Shown: one piece after another, positions 2,176-26,609 of the stretch
Layout: each line of letters begins with the position of its first letter
Numbering within the stretch: position 1 is the stretch's first letter
IMG/VR virus record: IMGVR_UViG_3300032308_002249
Span: 1-37,758 of that record
Direction: 5' to 3' (one strand)
From: a virus
Length of the DNA: 37,758 bases
Program-made: the position numbers and the translations under genes
Notes under the pieces: generated by a model
Told to the model about the DNA's origin: nothing
Seen by the model: the letters and a program-made list of their open reading frames with translations, nothing else
Databases searched by the model: none

Positions 2176-2675
2176 GCTCGTGGATCCTGTCTGTGCTGAA
2201 ACAACTGTTTCAAATAGTCTTCAGGCCAGGTGTTGTAGAATCCTTTGTTGGCCATGGCACGGGCTTTTTGATTCAAGTCGCTTAAACTTTGTACTAAAGC
2301 CAAGGCATAGGTACCTTGATTCATTGACACACCGTTGACTATTTCGGCATCTGTGGGATGATCTTCTAGAGCAATCATGTCTTTGGGCACAAGATGATTC
2401 TTGTTGGCAAATTCAATCTGTTTGTGGAATTCTTCATAAGGGTGTTGAGCAGGATCGTACACAAAGATCAGCACACTCTTGGTCAAGGTGCCATAGCTGA
2501 CAGCGATGAGATCTTCAAAGGGATTGCGGCCCAGTCTGACTTCAAAGTCACGATCCAGTCTGGCTTTACGGGCATACGGACACGGAGCCCAGCCACCCAG
2601 TGCTGGATGTGGAACTTCTACAAAAGTCTCTATCCAGTGTTCTATGTCCGATTGTACTGTTGTTATGTCGAGCAT
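2172..2675 (-). CDS. Conserved-type hypothetical protein (167 aa)
   Basis: I do not recognise the family. The start chosen is ATG at 2675 (MLDITTV), which shares one base with the upstream TGA stop (TGATG); a TTG one codon earlier is the alternative. The protein is soluble, mixed alpha/beta, with a Trp/Pro-rich N-terminal half, a hydrophobic strand SVLIFVYDP near the middle and a C-terminal helical region. No catalytic signature is evident. It ends in a 4-nt overlap with the next gene. It belongs to the same polycistronic unit as gp26, so it is probably expressed late and may assist tail assembly; that role is inference from position only. Confidence 0.7.
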   Translation of the reverse strand: MLDITTVQSDIEHWIETFVEVPHPALGGWAPCPYARKARLDRDFEVRLGRNPFEDLIAVSYGTLTKSVLIFVYDPAQHPYEEFHKQIEFANKNHLVPKDMIALEDHPTDAEIVNGVSMNQGTYALALVQSLSDLNQKARAMANKGFYNTWPEDYLKQLFQHRQDPRA

Positions 2676-2887
2676 CAATAAAATGGTAATCCAGATTTTT
2701 TGGTAGTTTCAAGATTATCTTTGATAATATCACTCACAATGTTTCTTTCGCTGACACTGAGATTCATGCCTTCTTCGTATGTTACGCCTCCTCGCATGTA
2801 CCAACACATTTTAAGCACATCTTCTCTGATACCGAGTATTTCTTTGTCTTGCTGTTCAATGAGTTTGGTAATGCCTTCGGGACTCAT
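2675..2887 (-). CDS. Small gp51-like hub-assembly partner of gp26 (70 aa from ATG; may be a -1 frameshift extension of gp26)
   Basis: From the ATG at 2887 the product is 70 aa (MSPEGITKLI to SGLPFY), helical and charged, with the recognisable core CWYMRGGVTYEEGMNLS. Small proteins like this follow gp26 in marine T4-like phages and occupy the place of T4 gp51, a catalyst of baseplate-hub assembly that is not in the virion. The start codon lies only 2 nt after the gp26 stop. It has no purine-rich SD; the bases before it are pyrimidine-rich (CCTCC). The frame is open upstream into the 3' end of gp26, up to 2971, and is exactly the -1 frame relative to gp26. Expression could therefore be by coupled re-initiation or by frameshifting at the heptamer in the separate entry. 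The gp51 assignment rests on position and size and is uncertain. Confidence 0.7.
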   Translation of the reverse strand: MSPEGITKLIEQQDKEILGIREDVLKMCWYMRGGVTYEEGMNLSVSERNIVSDIIKDNLETTKKSGLPFY

Positions 2888-2889
2888 GG

Positions 2890-3738
2890 TCAGGAGGCGG
2901 ATACGAAAAAATTTGCAACATCCATTGTGAATGGAGTGTCGTACTGCTTGGTACATTCGTGATTCTGACAAGTGATCTTGATGGGCTTGAGCTCGCTTTG
3001 ATCTTTCAAACTCACGATATGATCTCGTATCTTCTGAAACACATCGCGTGAGCAGTTTTTAATGAACTCTTGTATAAATTCTGGCTCGACCACCATGTCA
3101 TTGCCCATGCGTATCATTGAAATACTTTGTGCAATAGCATTCATGGTCATTTCACTGAGTTTGACAAATGCTTCGTTAATGCGCTTGATTTTTTCAGTTT
3201 CTGAAAAACCTGAATCTGGCAACATTTCCAACATCTTTTGATCTTCAAACTGCAACACAGAGTTCTGGTTGGTTTCTTCGTAGCTGAGTGGTCTGAAATA
3301 TATTTCCAAATCTCCGGTGACCACAGATTCACTGTAATCGGGCATGCGTAGACCTTCCAGCACTGTACGCAAATCCAGTCCAAACGAGTTTTCGTTGGCA
3401 CAATGCGGGCACACACTGTCAAACTGTAGCTCGTGTCCGGCACTGGCAATGCGTATGGCCACCAACAGGGTGTCCATGTCAATGGAAGGAATCTTCCAAG
3501 GGTCGCGAATGTTTGGAATACAGCTTCGAATCACATTGACCACTGCTGATCCGTTGAACAAGGCATCTGCTGTGCGATAAGTGATTTCATCCATGGCGGT
3601 CATTGGATAAACCGGAAGCTCTCTGTTGGGAGGCATGTTAACAACGCCGTCGGGATAAAAATTACCATCGCTGGGTAACTTGATGTAAATTGCCGGTTGT
3701 CTAAAGAATCGGCGTAGTGGGTTTGCATTATCTGTCAT
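2890..3738 (-). CDS. 26: Baseplate hub assembly protein gp26-like
   Basis: The 282-aa product resembles the T4 base-plate protein gp26 family of tail-hub assembly factors. The N-terminus IYIKLPSDGNFYP followed by LPVYPMTAMDEI is characteristic. A central CPHC (C110, C113) and a C-terminal CxxxxC (about residues 257-262) could form one zinc ribbon. T4 gp26 is about 208 aa, so this version is longer. The start chosen is ATG at 3738, because AAGGA sits 6 nt upstream of it on the minus strand; an upstream in-frame ATG at 3753 overlaps the promoter and lacks an SD. The gene leads a five-gene overlapping operon under a late-type promoter. Its last codons contain an in-frame A AAT TTT slippery sequence. 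Confidence 0.85.
   Translation of the reverse strand: MTDNANPLRRFFRQPAIYIKLPSDGNFYPDGVVNMPPNRELPVYPMTAMDEITYRTADALFNGSAVVNVIRSCIPNIRDPWKIPSIDMDTLLVAIRIASAGHELQFDSVCPHCANENSFGLDLRTVLEGLRMPDYSESVVTGDLEIYFRPLSYEETNQNSVLQFEDQKMLEMLPDSGFSETEKIKRINEAFVKLSEMTMNAIAQSISMIRMGNDMVVEPEFIQEFIKNCSRDVFQKIRDHIVSLKDQSELKPIKITCQNHECTKQYDTPFTMDVANFFVSAS
2908..2914 (-). promoter_or_regulatory. Candidate -1 ribosomal frameshift heptamer (A AAT TTT)
   Basis: In the gp26 frame the codons are GCA AAT TTT TTC GTA, giving the X XXY YYZ heptamer A AAT TTT at 2914-2908, followed by a second overlapping candidate, T TTT TTC. A slip of -1 here would bypass the gp26 stop 5 codons later and enter the frame of the 70-aa partner. 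This layout matches the frameshifted tail-assembly chaperone pairs of many long-tailed phages (lambda G/GT). I see no clear downstream stem-loop, so efficiency is unknown. Confidence 0.55.
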
Positions 3739-3750
3739 GTTTTTCCTTAC

Positions 3751-3764
3751 CATAAATATTTAGG
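3751..3764. promoter_or_regulatory. Overlapping divergent late promoters
   Basis: The plus strand reads CATAAATA at 3751-3758 and the minus strand reads CCTAAATA at 3764-3757. The core TAAATATTTA at 3753-3762 is a perfect palindrome. It serves gp26 on the minus strand and the tape-measure gene on the plus strand. The motif matches the -10 element of T4 late promoters, which is read by the gp55 sigma factor. Confidence 0.75.
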
Positions 3765-3790: not shown

Positions 3791-6148
3791 ATGGCAGATT
3801 TAGAAAATTCCAGCGAACTGTTGCGACAATCCTTAGATGAATTGCGCAAAACCGGCGTGCTCACAACGGCCACACTTGACAAGCTAAACAAAGCATCGGC
3901 CAAGGCTGCCAACGGCACAGCTGAACTGGGTGAAGCATCAAAAGAAGCCGCAACCAATGTCAACACCTTTGACAAAAAGTTGGTGTCAGCAGTTAAGAGT
4001 CTCACTGATGCTGGCAATGCCATACGTGACAACAGAGAAGATTTTCGCAGTTTAAATCCAGCTATACGAGCTTCGGGCATTGCACTGGGTGCCGCTGGTC
4101 GCAAGATTGGTGGTGTAGTCGAAGGAGTAGGCGATGCTGTGTCAGGACTCAGTTTACTTCTTGGGCCCAAAGGCAAACTGATTGGCATGATTGGTGGAGG
4201 ATTGCTAGGTGGGTTCGGCAAAGCCATTGGTGCCAGCTCAGATGCGGCTGCTCAGTTAGCAGTGCAGTTTGGAGAGTTTGCCACAGGTGAACTACAAAAA
4301 GTAGTCGAAGCATATCGTCAAGTAGGAGCTGTAGGCGGTATTGCTGCCGGTGGTATGACTGAACTCTACGATCAGTCCATTGCAGCCGGTTTGTCAATTG
4401 GACAGTTTGCCAAAGTCATTGCCACCAACAGCGAAACATTGGCTAAGGCCACTGGTAGCACCGCAGAAGGCGCCAAGATACTAAGTCAAATGGCACAGGT
4501 TGGTGATGCCACCACTAGACAGTTTTATGCTCTGGGTATGTCAGTTGAGCAAACCAGAGACTTTCAGGCCAAGTTTCTAGAACAAAATCGACTCACTGGT
4601 CGTATACAAAAGGGCGAGACCGATAAGCTAATAGAAGCCAGCAAGGCCTATATCTTCCAACTAGATGAATTGGCTCGCATCACCGGACTCAGCAGAGAAC
4701 AAGCTGCCAAACTACTGGAAGAACAAAACAGAAACATAAGATTCCGTGCCAGCCAGCGCATGGCCGAACGTGAGTTTGGTCCAGAAGTAAAGAAAGCCAT
4801 GCAAGATTCGGTGGCTGTGATATCCAGCGCCAGCAAAGAGTTTGGTACAGGTTTCGCTGATCTCATGGGCCCAGGTGGCGCATCCACTGAAGCCGCTAAG
4901 AATCTACAGATAGCCACAGGCGGTGCTGCCAAAGGTATTGCAGACATGGTGCGCACAGGACAGATGACAGCTGACCAAGGTGCGGCTGCTATTCAGAAAG
5001 CCATACAAGATAAACTAGCAGGTCTGGGCGGGGATGCGTATCTGGCTTTTGTGGGCGGAGTTGAAGGGCCTTTGGAAAAACTTTTGCTTCCTATGGATGA
5101 TATAGCCAAGTCTACCAACCTTACTGTGGAAGCGCAGAGAAAGGCTCGCGAAGAAGGGCAAGCGGCTCGTAATGCTCAAGACGAAAATACCAAAAAGATC
5201 ATTGATGCACAAATGGCCTTGCAAAAAATGGCCGTAGAACTTGACAAACTGGTCAAAGAAAAAATACTGCCCAGTGCGGCTGCGGCAGTACAAAAATTCA
5301 CACAAACACTGTTGGCATCGGTGGATTACATCAATCAAAAGTTGGGAATCAATCCGGGCGGTGGTGGCAAAACTCCGCCTGCTGGAGGCACTGCCTCAGG
5401 ATCCAGAGCAGGCGGCGAGACACCATCAGCTCCTGTTTCTGGAGATCTTAAGTCCAAGATCATGCAGTTGGAAAGTGGAGGCCGCAATATTGGCACAGGG
5501 CTAGGCGGAGGAACGTCTTCGGCATTTGGCTTGTATCAAATGACTCGTACTACTTTTAACAGCCTTTCACGACAGGCCAAAGAAGGTGATGCACTGTATG
5601 GTAAAACTTTTGAACAGATGCGAGAAGACGTCAATCTGCAGAGTGCAGCCATGGATGCTTTGCTTGCGGCAAATCAAGCGCAGTTGGCAAAGGCACAAGT
5701 TAGTACCAAAGACGCTGCCATGTACATGGCACATGTGTTGGGTGGAGGCACAGCTACTAAAATACTGAAAGCCGCCAACGACGTCAACATTGATGATGTA
5801 GTAATGCCTATAGCCAAAGCCAACAACCCCGGCTTATTCAAAGGTGTTAGAACAGTAGGCGATATCAAGGCCAGTTTTGATCGTGTGACCGGAGGCGGTG
5901 GTTATCAGTATGGCGGAGTAGCATCAGGGCCAAAATCTGGATACATGAGCATGTTGCATGGCACAGAAGCAGTGATACCATTGCCCGGAGGTCGTAGTGT
6001 GCCTGTGGAAATGACCGGTATGAGTGACAAAATTGGTGAGCAGGTGGGCATGATGAGTGCTCAATTGGACAGACTGGACGAAATGGTCAGTTTGATGAGA
6101 ACCAGCAACGACACCAACGCAAAAATACTTCGCGCATCGCAGAACTAG
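3791..6148 (+). CDS. Tail tape-measure-like protein with C-terminal transglycosylase domain
   Basis: This 785-aa protein begins with a helical, Ala/Leu-rich region and a glycine-rich hydrophobic segment (about residues 110-150, LLGPKGKLIGMIGGGLLGG). A long helical middle with Gln/Lys/Glu-rich stretches follows. Near residues 550-670 there is an SLT-like lytic transglycosylase module: candidate catalytic Glu561 in MQLESGGRN, then SSAFGLYQMT about 20 residues on. The tail end has GYMSMLHGTEAVIPLPGG, typical of phage tape-measure C-termini. It would set tail length inside the tube and locally open peptidoglycan during DNA entry. It diverges from gp26, which fits a hub/tape-measure role analogous to T4 gp29, though sequence similarity to gp29 is not claimed. 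The ATG follows ttatcggcgtagatt, which has only a weak SD. Confidence 0.75.
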   Translation: MADLENSSELLRQSLDELRKTGVLTTATLDKLNKASAKAANGTAELGEASKEAATNVNTFDKKLVSAVKSLTDAGNAIRDNREDFRSLNPAIRASGIALGAAGRKIGGVVEGVGDAVSGLSLLLGPKGKLIGMIGGGLLGGFGKAIGASSDAAAQLAVQFGEFATGELQKVVEAYRQVGAVGGIAAGGMTELYDQSIAAGLSIGQFAKVIATNSETLAKATGSTAEGAKILSQMAQVGDATTRQFYALGMSVEQTRDFQAKFLEQNRLTGRIQKGETDKLIEASKAYIFQLDELARITGLSREQAAKLLEEQNRNIRFRASQRMAEREFGPEVKKAMQDSVAVISSASKEFGTGFADLMGPGGASTEAAKNLQIATGGAAKGIADMVRTGQMTADQGAAAIQKAIQDKLAGLGGDAYLAFVGGVEGPLEKLLLPMDDIAKSTNLTVEAQRKAREEGQAARNAQDENTKKIIDAQMALQKMAVELDKLVKEKILPSAAAAVQKFTQTLLASVDYINQKLGINPGGGGKTPPAGGTASGSRAGGETPSAPVSGDLKSKIMQLESGGRNIGTGLGGGTSSAFGLYQMTRTTFNSLSRQAKEGDALYGKTFEQMREDVNLQSAAMDALLAANQAQLAKAQVSTKDAAMYMAHVLGGGTATKILKAANDVNIDDVVMPIAKANNPGLFKGVRTVGDIKASFDRVTGGGGYQYGGVASGPKSGYMSMLHGTEAVIPLPGGRSVPVEMTGMSDKIGEQVGMMSAQLDRLDEMVSLMRTSNDTNAKILRASQN

Positions 6149-12333: not shown

Positions 12334-13398
12334 ATGCAAGACCTACACTGGCGGTACAACTACAATACTGCAGAATTTGATTTTGTAGAAAACAATCCCA
12401 ATCAGCATTATGAACCCTTGCTCAAGCATGTTCATGTGCCCACTCTGGTCATTGACATCAATTTGGTCAAACAACAAGAACTACAACAGTATGTTGCAGA
12501 TGTCATTGACCGTGCATCGGCCAGTCAAATTAAATTTGATCAAATCATTTTTGATGGCACACAGGATCCATTTCACGACTATCGATCCAAGGTTGCAACA
12601 CTAGATGCTTTTTCGCAACACAAAGGCATTCCTTGTTACCTCAGCTTAAGTCAATTTGATCTGCAACAACATACCTGTCTTAGAGAGATCAACTATCCTT
12701 CATGGTTGTTTGTTTTTAAAAAACAATCACTGCCTGAGTGGAACGATCAACCTAGAACACATGCGTTTAGCTGTCTCAATCGCAATCCCACCTTTCATAG
12801 ACTGGTGCTGTACACCATGCTCAAACAACGTGGACTGCTAGATAAATTCATCTATAGTTTTTATGATCGTTGTCCCTATCAAGGGCACAAAATTACTCCA
12901 TATCAGTACCGTGGACTGGAAAATCTTGTAGGAGCTGATCTGGCTCAAAAGTGCATGATCAACATACAAGACTTCCCCATCAGTTGGAACAGTGAAACTC
13001 TGGGCAACAACGATCATTCCATAGTCCATCCTGCTTATCAAGACACCTGGTGTAACATTGTCACTGAAACATCAGCCCTGGTATCGTTTACCAGTGAGAA
13101 GATATGGAAACCCATAGCCGCTGGACAGTTGTTTTTGGTAGCCGGTGCTCCAGGTACCTGTGCCTGGCTGAAAAAGTTGGGATTTCATACCTTTGATGAT
13201 GACTATGATCTCAAACAAAACTTTTCCAGCAGATTTGAAATGCTGGCAGACAGCGTGACAGCACATGTCGAAGACACACAAGATTGGTGGCAACAAAATC
13301 GCTTTCATATTGAACACAACTATCACTGGTTCCGTTCGGGCAATGTAGAGAAAACCCTGCTGGATTCCATGGTAAATCAACTCAATCATAAATACTAG
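12334..13398 (+). CDS. Glycosyltransferase-like protein (354 aa)
   Basis: A soluble two-domain protein. The N-terminal half has Rossmann-like strands (TLVIDINLV, QIIFDGTQDP). A mid segment, HAFSCLNRNPTFHRLVLYTML, starts the second half, and FTSEKIWKPIAAGQLFLVAGAPG at about residues 251-272 resembles the donor-binding region of GT-B enzymes such as fucosyltransferase-type families (S/T-E-K-x-W-x-P-I-x-A-G). Phages use such enzymes to glycosylate virion proteins, phage DNA or host surface. Here the gene follows capsid and precedes a decoration-like and fibre genes, so modification of virion proteins is a reasonable inference. A divergent paralogue lies at 32583-33668. The start has no SD and is probably coupled to the 48-aa ORF. 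The last codons contain a late-promoter motif. Confidence 0.65.
   Translation: MQDLHWRYNYNTAEFDFVENNPNQHYEPLLKHVHVPTLVIDINLVKQQELQQYVADVIDRASASQIKFDQIIFDGTQDPFHDYRSKVATLDAFSQHKGIPCYLSLSQFDLQQHTCLREINYPSWLFVFKKQSLPEWNDQPRTHAFSCLNRNPTFHRLVLYTMLKQRGLLDKFIYSFYDRCPYQGHKITPYQYRGLENLVGADLAQKCMINIQDFPISWNSETLGNNDHSIVHPAYQDTWCNIVTETSALVSFTSEKIWKPIAAGQLFLVAGAPGTCAWLKKLGFHTFDDDYDLKQNFSSRFEMLADSVTAHVEDTQDWWQQNRFHIEHNYHWFRSGNVEKTLLDSMVNQLNHKY
13387..13394 (+). promoter_or_regulatory. Late promoter (CATAAATA) inside the end of the upstream gene
   Basis: The motif is formed by the last codons of the glycosyltransferase-like gene. It lies 84 nt before the next ATG at 13479, which has a strong AAGGAG SD, so it would give that gene a conventional leader. 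Confidence 0.6.
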
Positions 13399-13478
13399 TC
13401 AACGTAATAATGCGTTTTATGCGGCAACCACCGCGTAGTGGCTAGAACCCACATCGGACTTCTTTAAGGAGAAAACAA

Positions 13479-14315
13479 ATGGGACGTCCTCTCAAAATCC
13501 AAAAATTTGGTACCGCACAGGGTATCACATATCCCAGCAATACATCTGCCAATGTTCCAGCAGCCAGCGTGCCTGTTGATCAAGGTTATCCACAGTTTGG
13601 TCAGTTGACTGATCCTGAATATTATTCATCATTGACAGCCGCAAACTTCTACGGTGTTGTTGGTGGTGCAAAAAGTTCTGCACTTAGCGCAACTTTTCCA
13701 ATTGTAAAAGTTGAAGTTAATATCACCAACAGTTCTTCTGGTCAAACACCAGGAGTAATTCTACGTCAAAAAGGCAGCCACAAGTATTTGGTTGCTACCA
13801 CAGCTTCAATTGATCCTGCCAACGCTGTAGCAGGTGTAGCACTGCGTATCACAGCAGTGGGCGACACCGACTGGACAGCAATGGGTCTCAATGGCACAGC
13901 TGCCGTTGGAACAATCTTTACAGCCACAGCTGCCGCCGGCGCTGGTACTTCAGGTACAGCACAAGAAGTTGGTGTTTGCGTATTGACCAGCGACATAACT
14001 CCTGATGCAGGTTTGATGAGTATCAGTTTTGCCTCAGGCGGTGACTCAACTGAAGTTGCGGTCAGCAAATTAACCAACAAGTTCTTGCAAGGTTGGGCAG
14101 GCTTTACCAATGCTGCCGGTACAGCGTTGACCACATACAGCAATACAGGCAACAACGTAGGCCCAGTAAACTACTCAGGCGAAACAACCTTTTTAGCCAA
14201 CTTCTTTACTGACGATGCAGGCGCACAAGCTACCAAGTCTGGTGCAGAAGCTGATACATTTGCCAATACCACAGGTGACATTGAGTTGGCACAGGTTGAG
14301 AAATACACATCTTAA
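13479..14315 (+). CDS. Probable virion decoration/structural protein (278 aa)
   Basis: The family is not firmly recognised. The 278-aa product starts MGRPLKIQKFG and is Ala/Gly/Thr/Ser-rich with predicted beta structure and no cysteine cluster. A module near residues 121-160 (LRITAVGDTDWTAMG followed by VGTIFTATAAAGAG) is common in phage virion surface proteins. Codon use resembles gp23, with a strong SD and its own late promoter, pointing to high late expression. The position just after the capsid transcription unit suggests a capsid or tail surface protein. It is followed by a hairpin that may terminate part of transcription. Confidence 0.6.
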   Translation: MGRPLKIQKFGTAQGITYPSNTSANVPAASVPVDQGYPQFGQLTDPEYYSSLTAANFYGVVGGAKSSALSATFPIVKVEVNITNSSSGQTPGVILRQKGSHKYLVATTASIDPANAVAGVALRITAVGDTDWTAMGLNGTAAVGTIFTATAAAGAGTSGTAQEVGVCVLTSDITPDAGLMSISFASGGDSTEVAVSKLTNKFLQGWAGFTNAAGTALTTYSNTGNNVGPVNYSGETTFLANFFTDDAGAQATKSGAEADTFANTTGDIELAQVEKYTS

Positions 14316-14329
14316 TTTGTTCTAACCCT

Positions 14330-14362
14330 AAAATCCTCACTGCTATATACAGTGAGGATTTT
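14330..14362 (+). terminator. Terminator hairpin that contains the SD of the next gene
   Basis: A 13-bp perfect stem, AAAATCCTCACTG (14330-14342) and CAGTGAGGATTTT (14350-14362), with loop CTATATA and a run of six T from 14359. It looks like an intrinsic terminator. Its 3' arm also holds the only SD (GAGG, 14354-14357) of the gene starting at 14365. The same hairpin may thus attenuate both transcription and translation. Confidence 0.8.
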
Positions 14363-14364
14363 TT

Positions 14365-14952
14365 ATGACCACAGCATTTGTACTAGGCAACGGACGCAGT
14401 CGACAGGCAGTTGATCTAGCACTGCTGAAACAGCACGGCCCTGTGTATGCTTGCAATGCCATCTACAGAGAATTCACACCTGATGTGCTAGTAGCAACAG
14501 ATCGGCCCATAGCCGAAGCCATACAGAACTCAGGCTACAGTCTCAAACATAGATTCCACACCCGGCAACCCTTGCCCGAGTTAGGAGCACTGCCGTTGGA
14601 CAAACGCTATCGAGGATTCAGCTCAGGGCCCAATGCCACGGCTCTGGCATGCCTGGACGGGTACTATAAAATCTATCTCATAGGATTTGATCTTGGAACC
14701 ACAAACGGGCAATTTAACAATCTCTATGCTGACACAGAATTCTACAAAAAAAGTGCATCGCCGCCTACGTTTAGTGGAAACTGGGTGCGCCAATTGATAC
14801 AACTTGCCGAAGAAAACGACAACAAAGAATTTGTGCGTGTGATGGGCACAGAATCAGCAATGATACCAAGTTTTAATAACATTAAAAATCTGCAGACAAT
14901 GGCAATCTCTGAATTTACAGACCTGCTAAATACATCAAAAGGCTTGCTATGA
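14365..14952 (+). CDS. DUF115/sialyltransferase-like protein (195 aa)
   Basis: The N-terminus AFVLGNGRSRQAVD followed by VYACNAIYREFTPDVLVATD matches the nucleotide-sugar-binding pattern of DUF115/Maf-like and CST-type sialyltransferase folds (N-G-x-S, then C/R-x-N and a strand ending ATD). Further motifs are SSGPNATALAC and YLIGFDLG. It may transfer a sugar or synthesise an activated sugar. The gene overlaps the next, a fibre gene, by 4 nt (ATGA), which suggests it acts on or with the fibre product. The gene at 25935-26609 shares the NGxS and LxGxD motifs. Its SD is buried in the preceding hairpin. Enzyme activity is not proven. Confidence 0.6.
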   Translation: MTTAFVLGNGRSRQAVDLALLKQHGPVYACNAIYREFTPDVLVATDRPIAEAIQNSGYSLKHRFHTRQPLPELGALPLDKRYRGFSSGPNATALACLDGYYKIYLIGFDLGTTNGQFNNLYADTEFYKKSASPPTFSGNWVRQLIQLAEENDNKEFVRVMGTESAMIPSFNNIKNLQTMAISEFTDLLNTSKGLL

Positions 14953-15575
14953 CCACTTACAAACGCATCGACGGTGATTTTTATATACAAACCGTTTACC
15001 CTCCTGAACAAAAGGTGTATATTGACACGGATACCACTGTGAGTGGTAACTTGGTTGTTCAGGGTAACTTGACCTATATCAACGTCACAGAGCTCAATGT
15101 CACTGATCCGTTTATTCTAGTCAATGCTTCCAACACAGCAACCTATTCATCAAATTCTGGTTTGCTCACACACAAAACCAGTTCAGACTATGCTGGTATC
15201 AGGTACAACAGAAATTCAAACAGTTGGGAAATAAGCACCAGCACATCATCATCGGGCATCACCGGATCCTGGAGTGCTATTGCCAGTGCTGGGTCAATTG
15301 CAGCCGGTGCCAACACAGAAATACAATACAACAACGGTGGCGCACTTGGTGCCAATGCCGCATTTAAATTTGACTATGCAACCAGCAGATTGACCATCAA
15401 CGGTACCACAGCCTTGGGATACAGCAGTGTTCCACCAACCACTGTGGCCAACACTGCTACCATGGTTGCCAATATACCAGGCAGTGGTGGAACCGGTATC
15501 TATTTCAACAACAATAGCAATCAGGATGAGCTAATCAGCAAGTCAAAAGCCATTGTGTTTAGTATAATATTCTAA
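14949..15575 (+). CDS. Short tail-fibre-like protein (208 aa)
   Basis: Overlaps the upstream glycosyltransferase-like gene by 4 nt. The 208-aa product is beta-rich. It contains the fibre module VSGNLVVQGNLTYINVTELNVTDPFILVN (about residues 30-60) that reappears in the 1219-aa and 997-aa fibre proteins, plus GANTEIQYNNGGALGANAAF, which also has a counterpart (GANTQIQYN) in the 536-aa protein. It probably forms a short trimeric fibre or a fibre-tip adapter. The C-terminus (SKAIVFSIIF) is hydrophobic. It has no chaperone-type C-terminal domain. Confidence 0.65.
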   Translation: MTTYKRIDGDFYIQTVYPPEQKVYIDTDTTVSGNLVVQGNLTYINVTELNVTDPFILVNASNTATYSSNSGLLTHKTSSDYAGIRYNRNSNSWEISTSTSSSGITGSWSAIASAGSIAAGANTEIQYNNGGALGANAAFKFDYATSRLTINGTTALGYSSVPPTTVANTATMVANIPGSGGTGIYFNNNSNQDELISKSKAIVFSIIF

Positions 15576-15585
15576 GGAAAATAAA

Positions 15586-15900
15586 ATGACGATTCAAGTA
15601 GGAAACGTAACCACATCAGCCGCATCAGTTTATACCAGTGTGGGCAATACAGCCATTACATTTTTAAGTCTGTGTAACTACACAGCAGGCAACGTTGTAG
15701 CCAATGTGTTTGTGGTACCCAGTGGCGGGTCAGCTGGCAACACAAACATAATCCTTAGCACCCTGAATATAACTGTGGGCGACACGTATCAGTTGTATGC
15801 CGGTGCAGAAAAGTTGCTGTTGGCCAATGGTGATTCAGTACAGGTCAATGCCAGTGCCAACAACGCGATTAGCACAGTCACAAGCTATACCTCAATCTAA
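15586..15900 (+). CDS. Small beta-sandwich virion protein (104 aa)
   Basis: A 104-aa all-beta protein with the pattern ASVYTSVGNTAITFLSLCN, NVFVVPSGG, ILSTLNITVGDTYQ and KLLLANGDSVQVNAS. This kind of small domain is widespread near tail-fibre genes in marine and freshwater phages and is probably a fibre-associated surface protein. It has an AAGGAA SD. The following gene begins immediately at the base after its TAA stop. Confidence 0.7.
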   Translation: MTIQVGNVTTSAASVYTSVGNTAITFLSLCNYTAGNVVANVFVVPSGGSAGNTNIILSTLNITVGDTYQLYAGAEKLLLANGDSVQVNASANNAISTVTSYTSI

Positions 15901-16323
15901 ATGGGATATTTTGTCAAAAATCGACAGCTACAGAGTGGCAGTTCCAGCGTTGTGGTTCCCTCTGGAGATTCTGCTGATCGTCCTGTGGCTCCAGTTTTTG
16001 GCAGTTTTCGATACAACACCGACATAGGTACCTTGGAGTTTTTCAATGGATCTGTGTTCAAACAAGTTGGGCTGGGTGGTGAGCTCAATGTTGATGTATA
16101 TTCAGCCACAGGCGACGGATCTACCGCCACTTTTACCATTGGCAATACCACAGTGATCACAGCCAACGATCAAGTCATTGTGTTTGTGGGATCAATATAT
16201 CAAGCACCCACAACAAACTACGCCATCACCGGAGCAGGCTACAACATTACTTTTACTTCTGCACCGCCCAGTGGCGAACCCATAAACATCATACGAAATC
16301 TAGTAGCTCCTGCCACGCCTTAA
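15901..16323 (+). CDS. Fibre-associated protein made of two shuffled modules (140 aa)
   Basis: Starts directly after the previous stop (TAAATG) without an SD, so translational re-initiation is likely. It consists of two modules. The first, ADRPVAPVFGSFRYNTDIGT with LEFFNGSVFKQVG, is residues 20-60. The second, GDGSTATFTIG with VFVGSIYQAPTTNYAITG and ITFTSAPP, is residues 70-130. The same two modules occur in the same order inside the 536-aa and 1219-aa fibre proteins, so this protein is a stand-alone version of that pair. It is likely a fibre tip or fibre-bound protein. Confidence 0.65.
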   Translation: MGYFVKNRQLQSGSSSVVVPSGDSADRPVAPVFGSFRYNTDIGTLEFFNGSVFKQVGLGGELNVDVYSATGDGSTATFTIGNTTVITANDQVIVFVGSIYQAPTTNYAITGAGYNITFTSAPPSGEPINIIRNLVAPATP

Positions 16324-16327
16324 TACC

Positions 16328-16335
16328 CATAAATA
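16328..16335 (+). promoter_or_regulatory. Late promoter (CATAAATA)
   Basis: Ends 16 nt before the ATG at 16352, with an AAAGGG SD between the two. Confidence 0.65.
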
Positions 16336-16351
16336 CTCTAAAGGGTGATCA

Positions 16352-17962
16352 ATGGCAATTCAAAGAGTTTCTGGCAACATTCTGCAGGACAATCTGCAAC
16401 GCGGTGCCAATCTATCAATACAGGGTAATCTAGCCTATTTTGACGTGACCAACAGTCGTGTTGGTATTCGCACCGCCACCCCTCGGGACGAGTTCAATGT
16501 CATAGGTGTGGCCAATGCATCCAACGTTCGTATTACATCAGCCACAGCCAACGGCATATTCTATGCTGGCAACACTTTGTTGGCCTTGACCAGTGCAAAT
16601 TTTACCTACAACGGAACAAACGTTTTTACCAGTGGCAATATTCAAGCCATAGGCAATATCGAAGGTGGTAACATCATATCCGACGGTGCTGTGATCGGCA
16701 ACGTGGAAATCAGTGGAAATCTCATAGTAGAAAATCTCACAGTGCTTGACACCTTGTCGGGCAACATAATATCTGCCACAGGCAACGTCACTGGCGCCAA
16801 CATTATATCCAATGGCATAATACAAGCATCAACTGCCAATGTCACTGGCAATGCAGCCGTGGGCAACATACTTACAGACGGTTATTATTATGCCAACGGT
16901 GCTCCAATTGATCTACAACAGCCAGCTGGTGCCAACACCCAAATACAATATAATTTTAACAGCGACTTTGGTGCATCGGCCAACTTGACCTATGATCAGA
17001 GCACAGGTATTTTTCAAGTTGGGTACAGCAACAGTGGAACAATTCAAACTGATACATTAAATGTAACTGGCAATGTCACCAGCGGCAATATACAAGCCAC
17101 CTCGCTCACTGCCAACCGTGTGGTGTATGTGGGCGCCAATGATTATCTAGTGGATTCTGCCAATTTCACATTTGACGGTGCCACAGCCAACATACAAGGC
17201 GCCTTGGTTGTTGACAACTTTACCATCAACGGCACCAGCATCACGTCCAATGCCAATGTATCTATTTCTATGGCAGCTGGTTTTTCAGCCAGCACAGCCA
17301 ACAGCGGCAACATGACATTCACGGTGGATGGCACAGGCATTGCTAGTTTTGTCAGCACCACCAGTTTGACCATACCCTCGGGCAATACACTACAGCGCCC
17401 GGTGGCTCCTCAAACAGGAGCAATACGTTTTAATACTGGACTCACACAGGTAGAAGTTTGGGATGGAGCCCAATGGGAAGTAGTGGGCAGTGACTTTGTT
17501 TCAATAACCAATCAGACCATCAACGGCGATGGAACAACTACAGTGTTTACACTGGACGAAAGTACCACAGCGGCAGCCATCATAGTGGCTACCAACGGTG
17601 TGGTACAACAGCCTGGAGTTGCCTACGCAGTGACAGGCAACTTGATTACCTTTGCTGAAGCACCGCAAATTTCAGACTCAATAGACGTGAGATTTACAGC
17701 GGCAGTGACCTATGTCAATGCCATCACAAATCTGTCGGGCAATGCAGAAATCACTGTGTCGGAACCCGGAGTGGCCAACATTGCCACCTGCGACAGCTTG
17801 CAACTACCCGGCTACACAGTGGCCAGCGCAGCCAATATTGCCACACCTGCTGCCGGACAAGTTATCTATGTCACCAATGGAGATTCAGGAAATCCTTGCC
17901 TAGCGGTATACAGCGGCGGTGCTTGGAAGCGTGTGGCGTTGGGTGCAAATATCAGCGCATAA
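16352..17962 (+). CDS. Tail fibre protein (536 aa)
   Basis: A beta-rich, Asn/Thr/Gly/Ala-rich fibre protein. The N-terminus MAIQRVSGNILQDNLQRGANLSIQGN is probably the attachment end. Residues 90-190 carry GNI/GNV repeats. A module TANIQGALVVDNFTINGTSI lies near 270-290. The QRPVAPQTGAIRFNT and GDGTTTVFTLDESTTA pair lies near 345-450. The C-terminus has AAGQVIYVTNGDSGNPCLAVY then WKRVALG, a small tip domain seen at the ends of many phage fibres. Trimeric assembly is inferred from family behaviour. It is preceded by its own late promoter and SD and shares modules with its neighbours. Confidence 0.75.
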   Translation: MAIQRVSGNILQDNLQRGANLSIQGNLAYFDVTNSRVGIRTATPRDEFNVIGVANASNVRITSATANGIFYAGNTLLALTSANFTYNGTNVFTSGNIQAIGNIEGGNIISDGAVIGNVEISGNLIVENLTVLDTLSGNIISATGNVTGANIISNGIIQASTANVTGNAAVGNILTDGYYYANGAPIDLQQPAGANTQIQYNFNSDFGASANLTYDQSTGIFQVGYSNSGTIQTDTLNVTGNVTSGNIQATSLTANRVVYVGANDYLVDSANFTFDGATANIQGALVVDNFTINGTSITSNANVSISMAAGFSASTANSGNMTFTVDGTGIASFVSTTSLTIPSGNTLQRPVAPQTGAIRFNTGLTQVEVWDGAQWEVVGSDFVSITNQTINGDGTTTVFTLDESTTAAAIIVATNGVVQQPGVAYAVTGNLITFAEAPQISDSIDVRFTAAVTYVNAITNLSGNAEITVSEPGVANIATCDSLQLPGYTVASAANIATPAAGQVIYVTNGDSGNPCLAVYSGGAWKRVALGANISA

Positions 17963-17982
17963 AACCAAAAATTCAACTTGCT

Positions 17983-17990
17983 GGTAAATA
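17983..17990 (+). promoter_or_regulatory. Late promoter (GGTAAATA)
   Basis: Ends 21 nt before the ATG of the 1219-aa fibre gene at 18012, with GGAG in the leader. Confidence 0.65.
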
Positions 17991-18011
17991 TAATCATACA
18001 GTGGAGCAGAT

Positions 18012-21000
18012 ATGGCAATTACACGGATTAAAAATAATCAGGTTACTGATGCGTCAGCAGGTAACGTATACTTAGGTATAAATGCGGCAGTAAAACTGCA
18101 GGACTTCTCAGTCACCGCAGGCAAAATTGCCAACAGTTTAGTTTACGGATCAGACCTTACTGTCACAGGAAACTTGACAGTCAACGGACAAACCACAACC
18201 ATTGACACAGTCAGCGTTGTCATTGAAGATCCTATCCTTTATCTGGCAGCCAACCAAACGGGTGCCCCAAGTTTGGACATTGGTTTCATTGGTGAACGTG
18301 GAACCAGCCAAAATATTACATTTGTATGGGACGAATCCGCAGGTGAGTTTGTCACAGGTTTCACCAATGACACCACAACCAACAGCACAGTTACAATTGC
18401 CAGCTACGCCAACTTTCATACCAAAGATGCCAACATAGGTGGCAACATTGTCATCAACGGCACCACTAGCTTTGTTGGTAACATCATTTCTGCAGTAAAC
18501 ATCACTGGAAACTTGGCCGCTGGCAACATTTCAACTCCAGGACAGATTTCAGCTGTTGGCAACATTTCTGGTGGAAATGTAAATGCAGTGGCCAATGTTG
18601 AAACAGCCAATCTGCGTGTGACATCAATGACCGCTAATCGTGTGGTGTTTACAGGTGAAGACGACTATCTTATTACCACACAGAATTTTACCTATGATGG
18701 ATTCAACGCCAACATTCAAGGTGTTTTGATTGTTGATGCCTTTACCTTCAATGGCACAGATATCACCTCCAATGCCAATATAACAATTGGATCTAGCGGC
18801 AATGCCAACATTGACATAACTCCTGCAGGCAATGGAGTTCTAAATGTCAACAATATTACCATTGCTGACAACACCATTGGATCAAGCACAGGAAATATTG
18901 TTTTAAATCCTACAGCCAACATTGTGTTGCCAGATGAAACAGCCAGCGCAGTGCTGTATCTTACTGCGCAGAAAGAAATTGAATCCAGTTCTAATTTTGT
19001 GTATGATGGCACCACTGCCAACATTCAAGGTGCGCTGGTTGTTGACAATGTCAGAGTTGACGGCAACGAAATCTCTACAACCAACACAGACGGTAACCTA
19101 ACACTTAACCCTAACGGCAATGGCTTTGTTATAGTTGATGCCTTTAATACAAATTTCACAGGCAACATAGAAACCACAGGCAATGCCTTGATTGGTGGTA
19201 ACCTGGTTGTTCAAGGCAACATCACATACATCAACATCAACGACTTACGTATTGAAGATCCAATTATCATACTTGGTACTGGTCCCAACGGTGCTCCACT
19301 CACAGTCAACGATGGTAAAGATCGTGGTATATTCATGGAATACTATACCACTGGTATTGGCAACGCATTCATGGGCTTTGACATCAGTTCTGGCAACATG
19401 GTCATTGCCAACAATGCATACTTTACTGGCAACGACGTGGTTGGCATCAACTCTTATGGCACACTGGAAGTTGGCAATATCTACGCTCAATCAGGTGTGT
19501 TTGTTGGCAACGTTGATTGTGGCAACTTAAACAGTGCAGGTGCTGTGATTGGCAACGTACAAATCACAGGAAATTTAGCTCTTGGTAATCTTTCAGTCAC
19601 TGGAGTCATTAACACCACAGGCAATATCACAGGTGGCAATCTAGTATCAAATGCAGCCATAACAGCCGCAACCACAATCACCGCTACAGGCAATATCACT
19701 GGTGGTAACTTGACCACTGCTGGACTGACATCAACTGCCACTCTCAATGCTTCAGGCAATGCCAATGTGGGCAATCTTGGCACAGCAGGACTCATAGTGG
19801 CCACAGGCAACATCACAGGTGGCAACATCAACACAGGTGCTCAAGTGATAGCCACTGGCAATGTCACAGGTGGCAATATCAACACTGGTGGACAAGTTGT
19901 AGCCACAGGCAACATCACAGGCAACAATGTTGTTGGAACAACATCAGGTAAATTTGGCAACATTGTGATTTCAGGTGATGATATCACTGACACCAACGGT
20001 CGGGTGAACTTTAACACAGCTGGCGGCGATGTGGACTTTGCTGTCAACGGTGACACAGTGGCCAACATATTCTACGTGGATGCAGGCACAGGCACAGCCA
20101 GCTTTGGCAACTCAACGCAGACCACAGGTGCAGTGGTTTCATTTAACACTTCTAACTCTGTGCTGTTACCAGTTGGTAACTCTGCTCAACGACCCGCTGG
20201 TGTCACAGGCATGGTGCGTTTCAACACCACCCTAGACAGTTTGGAATTCTACGATGCAGATGGATGGATTTCAGCTGGTACAGTGTTTACTGTCATTGAC
20301 AGTCAAGTGTTCAACGGTGACGGATCAACCGTGGCCTTTACTCTAGACTCAGACCAAACCACAGACTCTTGTATTGTGTCAATCAACGGTGTGGTACAGA
20401 TTCCTGTGGTGGCGTATGCTGTTGCCGGAGTCATACTGACATTCACTGAAGCTCCGTTGAGTCAAGACGTGATTGAAGTTCGCAAGATTACCACAACAGT
20501 CACAGTCAAAGCTATTTCTAACTCCACAGGCAACGCTGTTGTTGAAGTTGAGGATACCAGCTCCAACGTTTACATCACTGGTAATCTTGTACCAATAGCA
20601 AACAGTGCTCAGGATCTTGGCAGTGCAACTCTGCGTTGGAAAGATGGCTATTTCAGCGGTAATTCAATCACCCTGGGCAACATTGTTCTCAAGAACACAT
20701 CGGGCAACACTCTAGCGTTTTTTGGTCCGGATGGAACAACACCAGGTGTACTCAGTTCCAACAACGTTGACACCACAAGCATTGCCAATGGCAACGCCAG
20801 TGTACAAACACTGAGCTCATCTGGCAACGTGGTGGTCAGTGCTGGTGGATCAGCCAATGTACTCACAGTGTCCAGTAGCGGAATTTCTGTAGCTGGCAAC
20901 ATCAATGTGTCTGGTAACATTATTGCTCCTCAGATATTGGCAGTACAAAGTCCGTTGCTGTATCTGCAGGACGATGCTCCATTCCCCTACAACTTCGACA

Positions 21001-21671
21001 TTGGCTTCTTCTCCAACTTTACCGGTGGACCAGGCAACACCTTCCAAAACACTGGTGTGGTGCGAGACTTTGCTGACAACGAGTGGAAATTCTTCTCCAA
21101 CGTGGCAACACCTGTGGGCAACACAGTCACGTTCAACGCCAACACAACCTATGACACAGTGGCCATGGGCCAGCTTCGAGTCAACCTAATGGGCAACGCC
21201 ACTGCTATCATCAACGGCGCTTCCAACGGTGTGGGCAACATTGGTAGTGCAACCTCAGTTTTCAACACAGCATTTATCAAGGCCACATCAGCACAATACG
21301 CTGACTTGGCAGAAAACTACGAAGCCGATGCCATGTATGAACCTGGCACAGTGGTATGTTTTGGCGGTGCCAAAGAAGTCACTGTGTGCGACGTAGCAGA
21401 CTCAACTCGTGTGGCAGGTGTTATTTCAACCAACCCCAGCTACTTGATGAATTCAGGGCAAACAGGTGATCATGTGGCTGCTGTTGCTCTGCAAGGTCGT
21501 GTGCCTACCAAGGTAACAGGACAGATCCGCAAGGGCGATCTAATTGTGTCAGCTGGTGATGGTCGCGGCCGTGCCAACAACGATGCTCGCGCAGGTACCA
21601 TTATTGGTAAAGCCCTGGCAGACTTTGACGGTCAAGACGGTGTGATTGAGGTCGTTGTAGGACGAGTTTAA
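18012..21671 (+). CDS. Large tail fibre protein with C-terminal chaperone-like domain (1219 aa)
   Basis: The largest protein of the window. It is built almost entirely from repeated beta modules. 'GNLTV-x-G-...-IEDPI-x-L' units occur near residues 50-80 and 395-420, with a more distant copy near 975-1000. 'ANIQGxLxVD' units occur near 235 and 335. A 17-residue repeat ATGNxTGGNxxTGxQV lies near residues 590-640. The QRPAG/GDGST pair lies near 730-830. The last 125 residues (ATSAQYADLAENYEADAMYE to VIEVVVGRV) resemble the C-terminal peptidase-G2/intramolecular-chaperone type domain common on phage adhesins, which helps trimerise the shaft and may self-cleave. No cleavage residues are assigned here. 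It has its own late promoter and a terminator after the stop. Confidence 0.8.
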   Translation: MAITRIKNNQVTDASAGNVYLGINAAVKLQDFSVTAGKIANSLVYGSDLTVTGNLTVNGQTTTIDTVSVVIEDPILYLAANQTGAPSLDIGFIGERGTSQNITFVWDESAGEFVTGFTNDTTTNSTVTIASYANFHTKDANIGGNIVINGTTSFVGNIISAVNITGNLAAGNISTPGQISAVGNISGGNVNAVANVETANLRVTSMTANRVVFTGEDDYLITTQNFTYDGFNANIQGVLIVDAFTFNGTDITSNANITIGSSGNANIDITPAGNGVLNVNNITIADNTIGSSTGNIVLNPTANIVLPDETASAVLYLTAQKEIESSSNFVYDGTTANIQGALVVDNVRVDGNEISTTNTDGNLTLNPNGNGFVIVDAFNTNFTGNIETTGNALIGGNLVVQGNITYININDLRIEDPIIILGTGPNGAPLTVNDGKDRGIFMEYYTTGIGNAFMGFDISSGNMVIANNAYFTGNDVVGINSYGTLEVGNIYAQSGVFVGNVDCGNLNSAGAVIGNVQITGNLALGNLSVTGVINTTGNITGGNLVSNAAITAATTITATGNITGGNLTTAGLTSTATLNASGNANVGNLGTAGLIVATGNITGGNINTGAQVIATGNVTGGNINTGGQVVATGNITGNNVVGTTSGKFGNIVISGDDITDTNGRVNFNTAGGDVDFAVNGDTVANIFYVDAGTGTASFGNSTQTTGAVVSFNTSNSVLLPVGNSAQRPAGVTGMVRFNTTLDSLEFYDADGWISAGTVFTVIDSQVFNGDGSTVAFTLDSDQTTDSCIVSINGVVQIPVVAYAVAGVILTFTEAPLSQDVIEVRKITTTVTVKAISNSTGNAVVEVEDTSSNVYITGNLVPIANSAQDLGSATLRWKDGYFSGNSITLGNIVLKNTSGNTLAFFGPDGTTPGVLSSNNVDTTSIANGNASVQTLSSSGNVVVSAGGSANVLTVSSSGISVAGNINVSGNIIAPQILAVQSPLLYLQDDAPFPYNFDIGFFSNFTGGPGNTFQNTGVVRDFADNEWKFFSNVATPVGNTVTFNANTTYDTVAMGQLRVNLMGNATAIINGASNGVGNIGSATSVFNTAFIKATSAQYADLAENYEADAMYEPGTVVCFGGAKEVTVCDVADSTRVAGVISTNPSYLMNSGQTGDHVAAVALQGRVPTKVTGQIRKGDLIVSAGDGRGRANNDARAGTIIGKALADFDGQDGVIEVVVGRV
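19806..19925 (+). repeat. 51-nt imperfect tandem repeat inside the fibre gene
   Basis: The phrase GGCAA-PyAT/GT-CACAGG begins at 19806, 19857 and 19908, a period of 51 nt or 17 codons. It encodes ATGNITGGNINTGAQVI, then ATGNVTGGNINTGGQVV, then ATGNITGNN. Looser copies extend upstream to about 19600. It could promote length variation by recombination or slippage. Confidence 0.75.
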
Positions 21672-21689
21672 TCCAGTTGTATGCGTCAC

Positions 21690-21717
21690 AAAATAGGGCT
21701 AGAAGTGGCCCTATTTT
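21690..21717 (+). terminator. Intrinsic terminator after the 1219-aa fibre gene
   Basis: A 10-bp stem AAAATAGGGC/GCCCTATTTT with an 8-nt loop, continuing into a run of T (21714-21720). A late promoter follows immediately. Confidence 0.88.
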
Positions 21718-21721
21718 TTTC

Positions 21722-21729
21722 CATAAATA
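21722..21729 (+). promoter_or_regulatory. Late promoter (CATAAATA)
   Basis: Begins 4 nt after the terminator stem and ends 21 nt before the ATG at 21751, with a TAAGG SD in between. It also argues against a TTG start at 21730, which would leave no leader or SD. Confidence 0.7.
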
Positions 21730-21750
21730 TTGGGTAAACTAAGGCAACAA

Positions 21751-24744: not shown

Positions 24745-24746
24745 AC

Positions 24747-24754
24747 CATAAATA
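24747..24754 (+). promoter_or_regulatory. Late promoter (CATAAATA)
   Basis: Lies just past the stop codon of the 997-aa fibre gene and 17 nt before the ATG at 24772, with an AGAGGAA SD between. Confidence 0.68.
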
Positions 24755-24771
24755 TGCTAGAGGAATAATAA

Positions 24772-25938
24772 ATGCCAACCCAAGTACAGTTTAGACGCGG
24801 TAGTTCCAGCCAAAATAACTCATTCACCGGAGCACAAGGCGAACTAACCATTGATACCACAAATTATACCATACGTGTGCAGGATGGTGCCACTGCTGGT
24901 GGATGGCCCACGGTTGGACTTACACAAACACAAACTTTAACAAATAAGACACTGAGCAGTGCTGTACTCACAGGCACACTGACCGCTGGTGGCGCCGCTG
25001 GCAATTCAGGACAATATCTAGAATCAACTGGCAGTGGAGTACGCTGGAGCTCAGTGGATTCAACTACAATTGCCAATGGAACGTCCAGTATTTCTTGTAT
25101 TGCATCTGGTGGTAATGTAAGAGGAAACATTGGCGGTGCCACTGTTTCAACTCTTTATGCTGGCGGCCTGGCAGTTACTGGTAAATTGCATCGCACAGGT
25201 GATGGCAGTGCGCCTAGTATTTCTACCAATGGCATTGGAATTGTGTCAGATGCATCAACATTTACAGATAGTACCAGTTTTGGTACAGTAGCGACTGTGG
25301 CTATACATGCCATACAACAACCAACTTTGGCTGCCAGTGCAGCCACAACATGGACCAATGCCGCAACATTTTACATTGCCAATGCAGTAGTTGGTGGGTC
25401 AAATGCAACTTTGTCCAATCGTTATGCTCTTTACGTAGCTGCCGGTGCGTCAGGATTTGGTGGCGACATTTTAAATTTACAGGCCAATGGCACAGGCAAC
25501 ATTGGATCAGCCTCTACATATTTTAACACTGCTCACGTCAAAGCCACGTCAGCTCAATATGCTGACGTTGCAGAACGCTATTTGGCTGACGCTGATTATC
25601 CTGTTGGTACAGTATTGGTCATTGGTGGAGACAAAGAAGTCACACAAAGCAACACAGCGGGTCAAACTTCAATTGCTGGCACAGTATCAGAGAATCCCGG
25701 AGTGCTGATGAATCGTGGTCTGGAAGGTGAGCATGTGGCGGCAGTGGCACTGATTGGCCGAGTACCATGCCGTGTGGTTGGGGTAATAAACAAGGGTGAC
25801 TTATTGATGAGCAGTGACTTTCCAGGAGTAGCTTGTAAACTGGAAAACTATACACCGGGGTGCGTGATAGGAAAAGCACTAGAATCTTATTCAAATAACA
25901 TAGAGGGTACCATTGAAATCATGGTAGGAAGATTATGA
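24772..25938 (+). CDS. Tail fibre protein with C-terminal chaperone-like domain (388 aa)
   Basis: Residues 1-60 form a common fibre base module (TQVQFRRGSSSQNNSFTGAQ, then ELTIDT and VQDGATAGGWP). A beta-rich middle follows (TLTNKTLSSAVLTGTL and so on). The last 125 residues (ATSAQYADVAERYLADADYP to GTIEIMVGRL) are a paralogue of the C-terminal domain of the 1219-aa fibre, with conserved SAQYAD, GTV, AGTVSENPGVLMN and HVAAVAL-x-GRVP stretches. It ends in a 4-nt overlap with the following glycosyltransferase-like gene, so the two are translated together. Confidence 0.78.
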   Translation: MPTQVQFRRGSSSQNNSFTGAQGELTIDTTNYTIRVQDGATAGGWPTVGLTQTQTLTNKTLSSAVLTGTLTAGGAAGNSGQYLESTGSGVRWSSVDSTTIANGTSSISCIASGGNVRGNIGGATVSTLYAGGLAVTGKLHRTGDGSAPSISTNGIGIVSDASTFTDSTSFGTVATVAIHAIQQPTLAASAATTWTNAATFYIANAVVGGSNATLSNRYALYVAAGASGFGGDILNLQANGTGNIGSASTYFNTAHVKATSAQYADVAERYLADADYPVGTVLVIGGDKEVTQSNTAGQTSIAGTVSENPGVLMNRGLEGEHVAAVALIGRVPCRVVGVINKGDLLMSSDFPGVACKLENYTPGCVIGKALESYSNNIEGTIEIMVGRL

Positions 25939-26609
25939 TCCATAAAGAACACTACAGAGAAAATTACACAGGTGAGTTTGTAATTACAAAAATTACCTAT
26001 AAAAATGGCCAAAAGCTCACTGAAAAAGAATACATTGAAAACCCCATTGTTAACCAACACATATCTGGACGTGCAGTGATCATCAGCAATGGACACAGTT
26101 TACGTGACGATGTAGTGACTGCATTGCGTAACCATGGTGGTGGCCTGTTGGGACAAAAGAAATTACAGACCTATGGCTGTGATGGCACATGGAAAAAAAT
26201 ACAGTTGGATTTTTGTATTGAGCATGACATTCCAACACTCAATGAAATTGTCAATGCTAGATACCATGAAAATTCTGTGGTGTACACACTGACTACAAAC
26301 TGTTTGAAGATGCCGGGACAATTTTATCTTGTTCCATATTCTGTTAGACTGGTACCACCAGCACAGGCCGCATATCTTGCCGCGTTTGATGGACACAAGG
26401 AAGTGTTTTTATTAGGCGTAGACGGCACCACCTCAGAGCATCACATTGATCACAAGCACATCATTGACATCAAACAAGTGATAGAAGCCTACCCTAACAC
26501 CAAGTTTTATTTTGTCACAGATCATGCCAATCCTTGGGCCGAATGGCGTGCATTTAGAAATGTAGAAGTTTTAGACTATAAACAGTTTATAATTCACTGC
26601 GATGTCTGA
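25935..26609 (+). CDS. DUF115/glycosyltransferase-like protein coupled to a fibre gene (224 aa)
   Basis: Begins in an ATGA overlap with the 388-aa fibre gene. After a 45-residue N-terminal extension it has RAVIISNGHSLRDDVV (N-G-x-S nucleotide-sugar pattern), a middle alpha/beta part, and EVFLLGVDGTTSEHHIDHKH, which parallels YLIGFDLGTTNG in the protein at 14365-14952. The histidine-rich loop (HHIDHKH) could bind metal. A role in decorating fibre proteins with sugars is inferred from fold hints plus coupling. Its 3' end overlaps the convergent Nudix gene by 16 nt with no terminator between. Confidence 0.55.
   Translation: MIHKEHYRENYTGEFVITKITYKNGQKLTEKEYIENPIVNQHISGRAVIISNGHSLRDDVVTALRNHGGGLLGQKKLQTYGCDGTWKKIQLDFCIEHDIPTLNEIVNARYHENSVVYTLTTNCLKMPGQFYLVPYSVRLVPPAQAAYLAAFDGHKEVFLLGVDGTTSEHHIDHKHIIDIKQVIEAYPNTKFYFVTDHANPWAEWRAFRNVEVLDYKQFIIHCDV

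Follow-up and report, generated by a model that had tools for sequence, protein, structure and literature searches.

Gene 26 of the window (the whole stretch of DNA that was analysed, 37,758 nucleotides) was identified on the minus strand, based on the match of its product to Pfam family PF12322 (E 9.3e-15, 55.3 bits against a curated cut-off of 24.5). For this protein, gp26, only T4_baseplate or baseplate hub matches were found in Pfam and PHROGs. The 3' end of the gene reads GTT GCA AAT TTT TTC GTA TCC GCC TCC TGA on the minus strand and includes two overlapping heptamers, A_AAT_TTT and T_TTT_TTC, both of them in the correct zero frame. On the same strand the -1 frame is open from position 2971 to a stop codon ending at 2675, and a long product made by a -1 shift would read ...N-F-F up to the junction and R-I-R-L-L-T-M... 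beyond it. The first-pass annotation had described both heptamers and the open -1 frame, as well as the ATG of a small downstream partner placed just past the gp26 stop and lacking a Shine-Dalgarno sequence, and all of these elements were confirmed. The features of the locus are listed in Table 1.

Table 1. Features of the gene 26 locus (positions in the window; ranges in brackets run in the direction of the minus strand)
Feature	Position	Strand	Remarks
gp26 zero-frame ORF (short product, 287 aa)	2890..3753	-	PF12322 / phrog_150 match
Slippery heptamer T_TTT_TTC	2905..2911 (2911-2905)	-	Zero-frame codons TTT 2910-2908 and TTC 2907-2905
Heptamer A_AAT_TTT	2908..2914 (2914-2908)	-	Overlaps T_TTT_TTC; present here, not conserved
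Zero-frame stop TGA	2890..2892	-	Four sense codons past the slip site
-1 frame extension, 76 codons + stop	2675..2905	-	C-terminus of the proposed long product
In-frame ATG of the partner	2885..2887 (2887-2885)	-	2 nt past the gp26 stop; no Shine-Dalgarno sequence
Structured mRNA, putative stimulator	2785..2904	-	Excess folding directly 3' of the slip site
Possible long-range helix, CGCCTCCT with AGGAGGCG	2899-2892 with 2792-2785	-	
Divergent neighbour, tape-measure-like protein (785 aa)	3791..6148	+	phrog_14121, E 3e-6

The run T6C occurs 14 times in the window against 9.1 expected, and the heptamer by itself is not rare; the case therefore rests on comparison with relatives. What goes beyond chance is conservation, that is, of position, frame and heptamer among the relatives and of the protein encoded by the -1 ORF.

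A scan of IMG/VR with gp26 as query gave 53 loci, and a second scan gave about 40 more. In all loci of the first scan with an intact region, except two (L047 and L048), the sequence NNT TTT TTY was followed by a stop within a few codons, with the -1 frame open for 70-80 codons. The loci of the second scan had the identical pattern, and the -1 extension was open in all relatives unless the end of a contig cut it. The site and the extension were also identified in the cultured jumbo phages Atu_ph07, Phosso, PA5oct, 121Q, RaK2, CBB, GAP32, Vibrio 2.275, BF, XaC1, Munch and RAS14. A DNA-level search in phages found nothing.

The relatives, cultured jumbo phages among them, were collapsed to 61 representatives, less than 90% identical to one another. 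All 61 carry T_TTT_TTY, which has the X_XXY_YYZ form of -1 frameshift heptamers (T_TTT_TTC in 58, T_TTT_TTT in three); these sequences are related by descent, and the product of their probabilities is not a p-value. The codon preceding TTT TTY is AAT in 26, AGT in 16, GAT in nine, CGT in six, CAT in three and TAT in one, its final T being the only invariant base. The first-pass annotation had taken A_AAT_TTT for the canonical heptamer; it is indeed present in frame, but with AAT at this place in fewer than half of the representatives it was rejected as the functional heptamer, the conserved one being T_TTT_TTC. The distance from the slip site to the zero-frame stop is one or four codons in 54 of the 61, with a maximum of 11. 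Elsewhere in these genes 64% of the Phe codons are TTT, and FF dipeptides are encoded by all four codon pairs.

The extension shows the signature of a coding sequence. Its open frame runs across the zero-frame stop, and the median pairwise dN/dS was 0.12 in the -1 frame; the two remaining frames gave 1.4 and 2.5. An R.RLL motif, encoded past the slip site but ahead of the zero-frame stop, is conserved in the -1 frame, whereas both the tail sequence read in the zero frame and the stop position vary among relatives. Neither the heptamer nor the open frame was lost in close relatives, which was the outcome named by the first-pass annotation as speaking against its proposal of a -1 frameshift linking gp26 to the partner, and the proposal is supported by these data.

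Another explanation is that the partner, a protein of 70 aa, is made separately by translational coupling, the ribosomes stopping at the TGA and restarting at the ATG that follows it. An ATG in this position is found in the window, in its close relatives L001 and L002, and in L020; TAATG overlaps are found in D524, KVP40 and D480; and public records annotate such ORFs, some of them as 'baseplate hub assembly catalyst'. However, the position of the window ATG is common only to the loci just named, and ATG, GTG and TTG are all absent from the first 15 residues of the extension in 40 of the 61 representatives and from the first 32 in 12 of them. The partner is therefore, in general, not an independent gene, and a free partner starting from ATG 2887 was rejected as the general mechanism. 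Judged from the relatives, most of which lack it, the ATG of the window is a local accident. Coupling also has no need of an invariant heptamer, does not account for the R.RLL kept in the -1 frame upstream of the ATG, and is at odds with the in-frame fusion of the extension in phages with two copies of the gene (see below). As the sole source of the partner it is very unlikely. Since an ATG is located at or near the stop in KVP40, D480, RHph_I34 and many cyanophages, reinitiation may nevertheless add a free partner in some phages.

The segments of 120 nt right after the slip site were more strongly folded than codon-shuffled sequences with an unchanged translation (mean z -1.77, with 41% of the values below -2), compared with a mean z of -0.04 to -0.81 for control segments placed 30, 60 and 90 nt further on or, seven of them, in gp26. 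A downstream stimulator of some form is likely, the structured segment being the putative one. No single conserved helix was found by RNAalifold over all relatives, and no match was found in Rfam. The helix CGCCTCCT/AGGAGGCG was weakly supported across relatives, with a mean z of -0.69. As a conserved stimulator, the GCCTCC/GGAGGC long-range helix was rejected, being only modestly better than codon shuffles; this modest signal arises because the codons for RLL and RGG have complementary sequences in any case. The region flagged by the first-pass annotation, taken alone, gave z -0.97 by dinucleotide shuffling, which is not exceptional.

Based on established knowledge of frameshifting, most ribosomes would stop at the TGA and give short gp26. 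A fraction would slip one base back on T_TTT_TTC, where the same tRNA-Phe could re-pair in both sites (UUU to UUU and UUC to UUU), and structured RNA just downstream would help the slip. The slipped ribosomes would produce gp26 with the 76-aa helical extension, at a set ratio to the short form. Slippage of RNA polymerase on the T6 run would likewise result in a fusion, the two products then coming from mRNAs of altered length. Six T residues, however, are short for efficient transcriptional slippage. It is the exact T_TTT_TTY that is conserved and not longer runs, which fits tandem tRNA slippage; the base ahead of TTT TTY is T without exception, which the heptamer calls for; and the RNA structure 3' of the site also argues against slippage of the polymerase, which we consider as improbable as coupling. 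That only short gp26 matters, and that the -1 ORF is decayed, a fortuitous overlap or a sequencing artefact, would agree with the frequency of T6C in the window, but hardly with purifying selection in that frame only, with conservation in both cultured and uncultured genomes, or with the homology, described below, between T4-type extensions and the T4 gp51 C-terminus; it can practically be dismissed. We put at about 0.87 the probability that gene 26 is a conserved -1 frameshift gene encoding short gp26 and a long fusion, the chaperone role and the duplication in T4 (see below) included.

Complete phage records were searched with PF12322 for the copy number of the gene. One gene each was identified in P-SSM2, S-PM2, HTVC008M, phiM12 and KVP40, and two in T4 (gp26 and gp51). 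The gp26 genes of these five phages end with NNT TTT TT[CT] and have a -1 extension of 55-62 codons. In cyanophage-type IMG/VR loci, T_TTT_TTC is located exactly one codon before the stop in 79 of 80. This site is also present in Cronobacter S13, Desulfovibrio 7757 and Vibrio D480 (no relatives were found in IMG/VR with the last as query), and in Rhizobium RHph_I34 it takes the form T_TTT_TTG. T4 gp26 ends with KEFFELL and has no slip site.

A profile was built solely from the frameshift-only extensions of T4-type (cyanophage/KVP40-type) phages. It matched the C-termini of gp51 from phiAS4 (4e-12), SFHK24 (2.5e-10), RB43 (3e-7) and T4 (9e-7), the best of 200 shuffled sequences giving E 0.06. 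Based on this match, the T4 pair consists, at the level of sequence, of gp26 as the short form and gp51 as the long one, in which the extension is encoded in frame. The first-pass annotation had treated T4 gp26 and gp51 as separate factors, a view that does not agree with both belonging to PF12322 and gp51 being the long form. Profile-profile comparison related the window-clade extension to the T4-type extension in the C-terminal half only (E 1.2e-4), and the jumbo-phage set to the T4-type with E 5.6e-6. In the predicted structure, the window-clade extension differs from the T4-type by an additional long helix. A common origin of both types of extension is supported by their identical placement at the slip site; the sequence comparison by itself is suggestive.

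In the two-copy records (T4, phiAS4, SFHK24, RB43, G001 and G002) the heptamer is absent from both copies, one copy is short and the other is fused in frame to the extension. In L047 and L048 the slip site is absent and gp26 and the extension are encoded in one frame, and a second PF12322 gene, which is short and has neither heptamer nor extension, is located just downstream in these records. Among the records examined for copy number, of which those from IMG/VR may be incomplete, the site was missing where there were two PF12322 copies and present where there was one, barring D524, L194, BRock and LR756508. In a maximum-likelihood tree, the deepest branches of which are long and the midpoint root of which serves for drawing only, this latter pair (G001) was placed inside the clade of the window, apart from the pairs of T4 type. 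In T4 and close relatives of it, duplication of the gene appears to have taken over from the slip, gp26 serving as the short form and gp51 as the long one; a marine lineage within the clade of the window would have taken the same step independently.

Vibrio phage D524 (L146, 2001-2850) has no heptamer, and a TAATG overlap provides the start of its partner ORF, which suggests that translational coupling has taken the place of the frameshift. In L194 (2501-3367) the loss of 2 nt at the slip site fuses a cyanophage-type gp26 in frame to the extension. A sister sequence, 92% identical, differs by this deletion, and a single PF12322 copy was found on the 236 kb contig; the fusion in L194 is either genuine and constitutive or a product of misassembly. 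BRock (L068, 2854-3937) and LR756508 (L066, 3001-4020), which have distant PF12322 genes, carry an extension-like ORF in the +1 frame. These ORFs follow CTG TTT C and AAC TTT C, respectively, with no nearby start codon, and +1 frameshifting at TTT_C is a candidate mechanism for both.

gp26 and the extension were modelled separately. The AF2 model of gp26 had a mean pLDDT of 92, and the 76-aa extension was predicted to be helical with a pLDDT of 91. In BFVD the gp26 model matched its own family only. No match was found in fold and sequence searches of the PDB with gp26, or in the fold search with the extension. In view of the missing PDB match, we do not assign gp26 to any known fold family of tail chaperones.

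In the window and in jumbo phages gene 26 is adjoined by a divergent tape-measure-like gene, and the RaK2 protein of the same phrog family, whose gene has the corresponding divergent position, carries an annotation of similarity to a tape measure protein. The product of this gene in the window is probably the client of the chaperone. The gene order is tube - gp26 - extension - tape-measure-like gene in BRock and tube - gp26 - extension - large tail gene in D480. In CBB, gp26 is annotated as 'structural protein'. In the PA5oct record the neighbours are marked 'ESI-MS/MS' and gp26 is unmarked, a weak hint on its absence from the virion.

T4 gp26 and gp51 are hub assembly chaperones (PMC3004832). 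By sequence, the predicted short and extended products of gene 26 have a common N-terminus, as do lambda gpG and gpGT. Based upon T4 genetics and the lambda analogy, gp26 and gp26-extension would be the short and long chaperones of hub and tape-measure assembly; the domain present in both perhaps binds the tape measure, and the extension may recruit a second partner. The frameshift could also be real and its products hub-specific assembly factors, not tape-measure chaperones of the G/GT kind, as the role known for the T4 proteins and the lack of a fold match of the gp26 model to known proteins would allow. We regard this as rather unlikely, since the T4 tape measure, gp29, is itself a hub component (PMC3004832) and since the genes of BRock and D480 occupy the usual place of a tail chaperone. 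With less confidence than in the frameshift as such, we lean towards a wider reading of the G/GT-like pair, in which the -1 frameshift of gene 26 goes back to the ancestor of the T4 superfamily as a whole, the T4 proteins gp26 and gp51 form a split G/GT pair serving as chaperones of the tape measure gp29, and duplication has replaced the slip at least twice independently.

The likeness to lambda gpG/gpGT (PMC5009743) consists in a short protein and a C-terminally extended form, predicted here, made through a conserved slippery heptamer close to the 3' end of the gene. Tail assembly is the probable function of gp26 as well, and the tape-measure-like gene beside it would be a further parallel. 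Unlike the lambda proteins, gp26 belongs to PF12322, has a larger short product (~210-290 aa) and no fold match in the PDB, and its slip has probably been replaced by duplication. The known cases explicitly exclude T4: the tail frameshift is described as widely conserved 'except T4' (PMC5009743). T4 gp26 and gp51, for their part, are of the same family as the proteins described here and correspond to the short product and to the long product with its C-terminal extension, but are encoded by two separate genes with the extension in frame and no slippery site. Judged from sequence comparison, the majority of T4-type phages would make both forms from a single gene by way of the slip. The presence of these two genes in T4 offers an explanation for T4 as the listed exception.

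Cyanophage gp51 has been described as ~20% of the usual length, with the first ~200 residues missing and a similar C-terminus, and frameshifting was not mentioned (PMC3037559). These short 'gp51' ORFs, and phrog_634 ('baseplate hub assembly catalyst'), correspond to the -1 extension annotated as a free-standing gene. We read them as the C-terminus of a gp26 fusion and not as an independent protein of ~50 aa, a reading that accounts for the ~200 residues seemingly missing from cyanophage gp51. Both phrog_634 and phrog_18291 are pieces of the extension. In the open-licence full-text literature, neither a frameshift in gp26 nor a description of gp26 and gp51 as short and long forms was found.

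Few features of long-tailed phages are as well conserved as the frameshifted tail chaperone, and the best studied of these phages, T4, is its listed exception. If the present reading is true, T4 is exceptional only through having traded recoding for two genes, and a concrete role can be proposed for gp26 and gp51. The exchanges of frameshift for duplication would be natural experiments, in which the need for both products and for their ratio is directly testable. Many public phage records omit or truncate the predicted long protein. The extension has no CDS in the records of RaK2 and PA5oct and is a short 'hypothetical' CDS in those of CBB, GAP32, BF and Munch.

Elsewhere in the window, a DUF6614 protein (Pfam, E 3e-20) is encoded at 1400-1735, downstream of gp26 and on the same strand. 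The region 12334-26609 is a long stretch of repetitive structural genes, including two for large proteins rich in GNITGGNxxxxG-like repeats. The ORFs at 18012-21671 and 24772-25938 have C-terminal segments in common.
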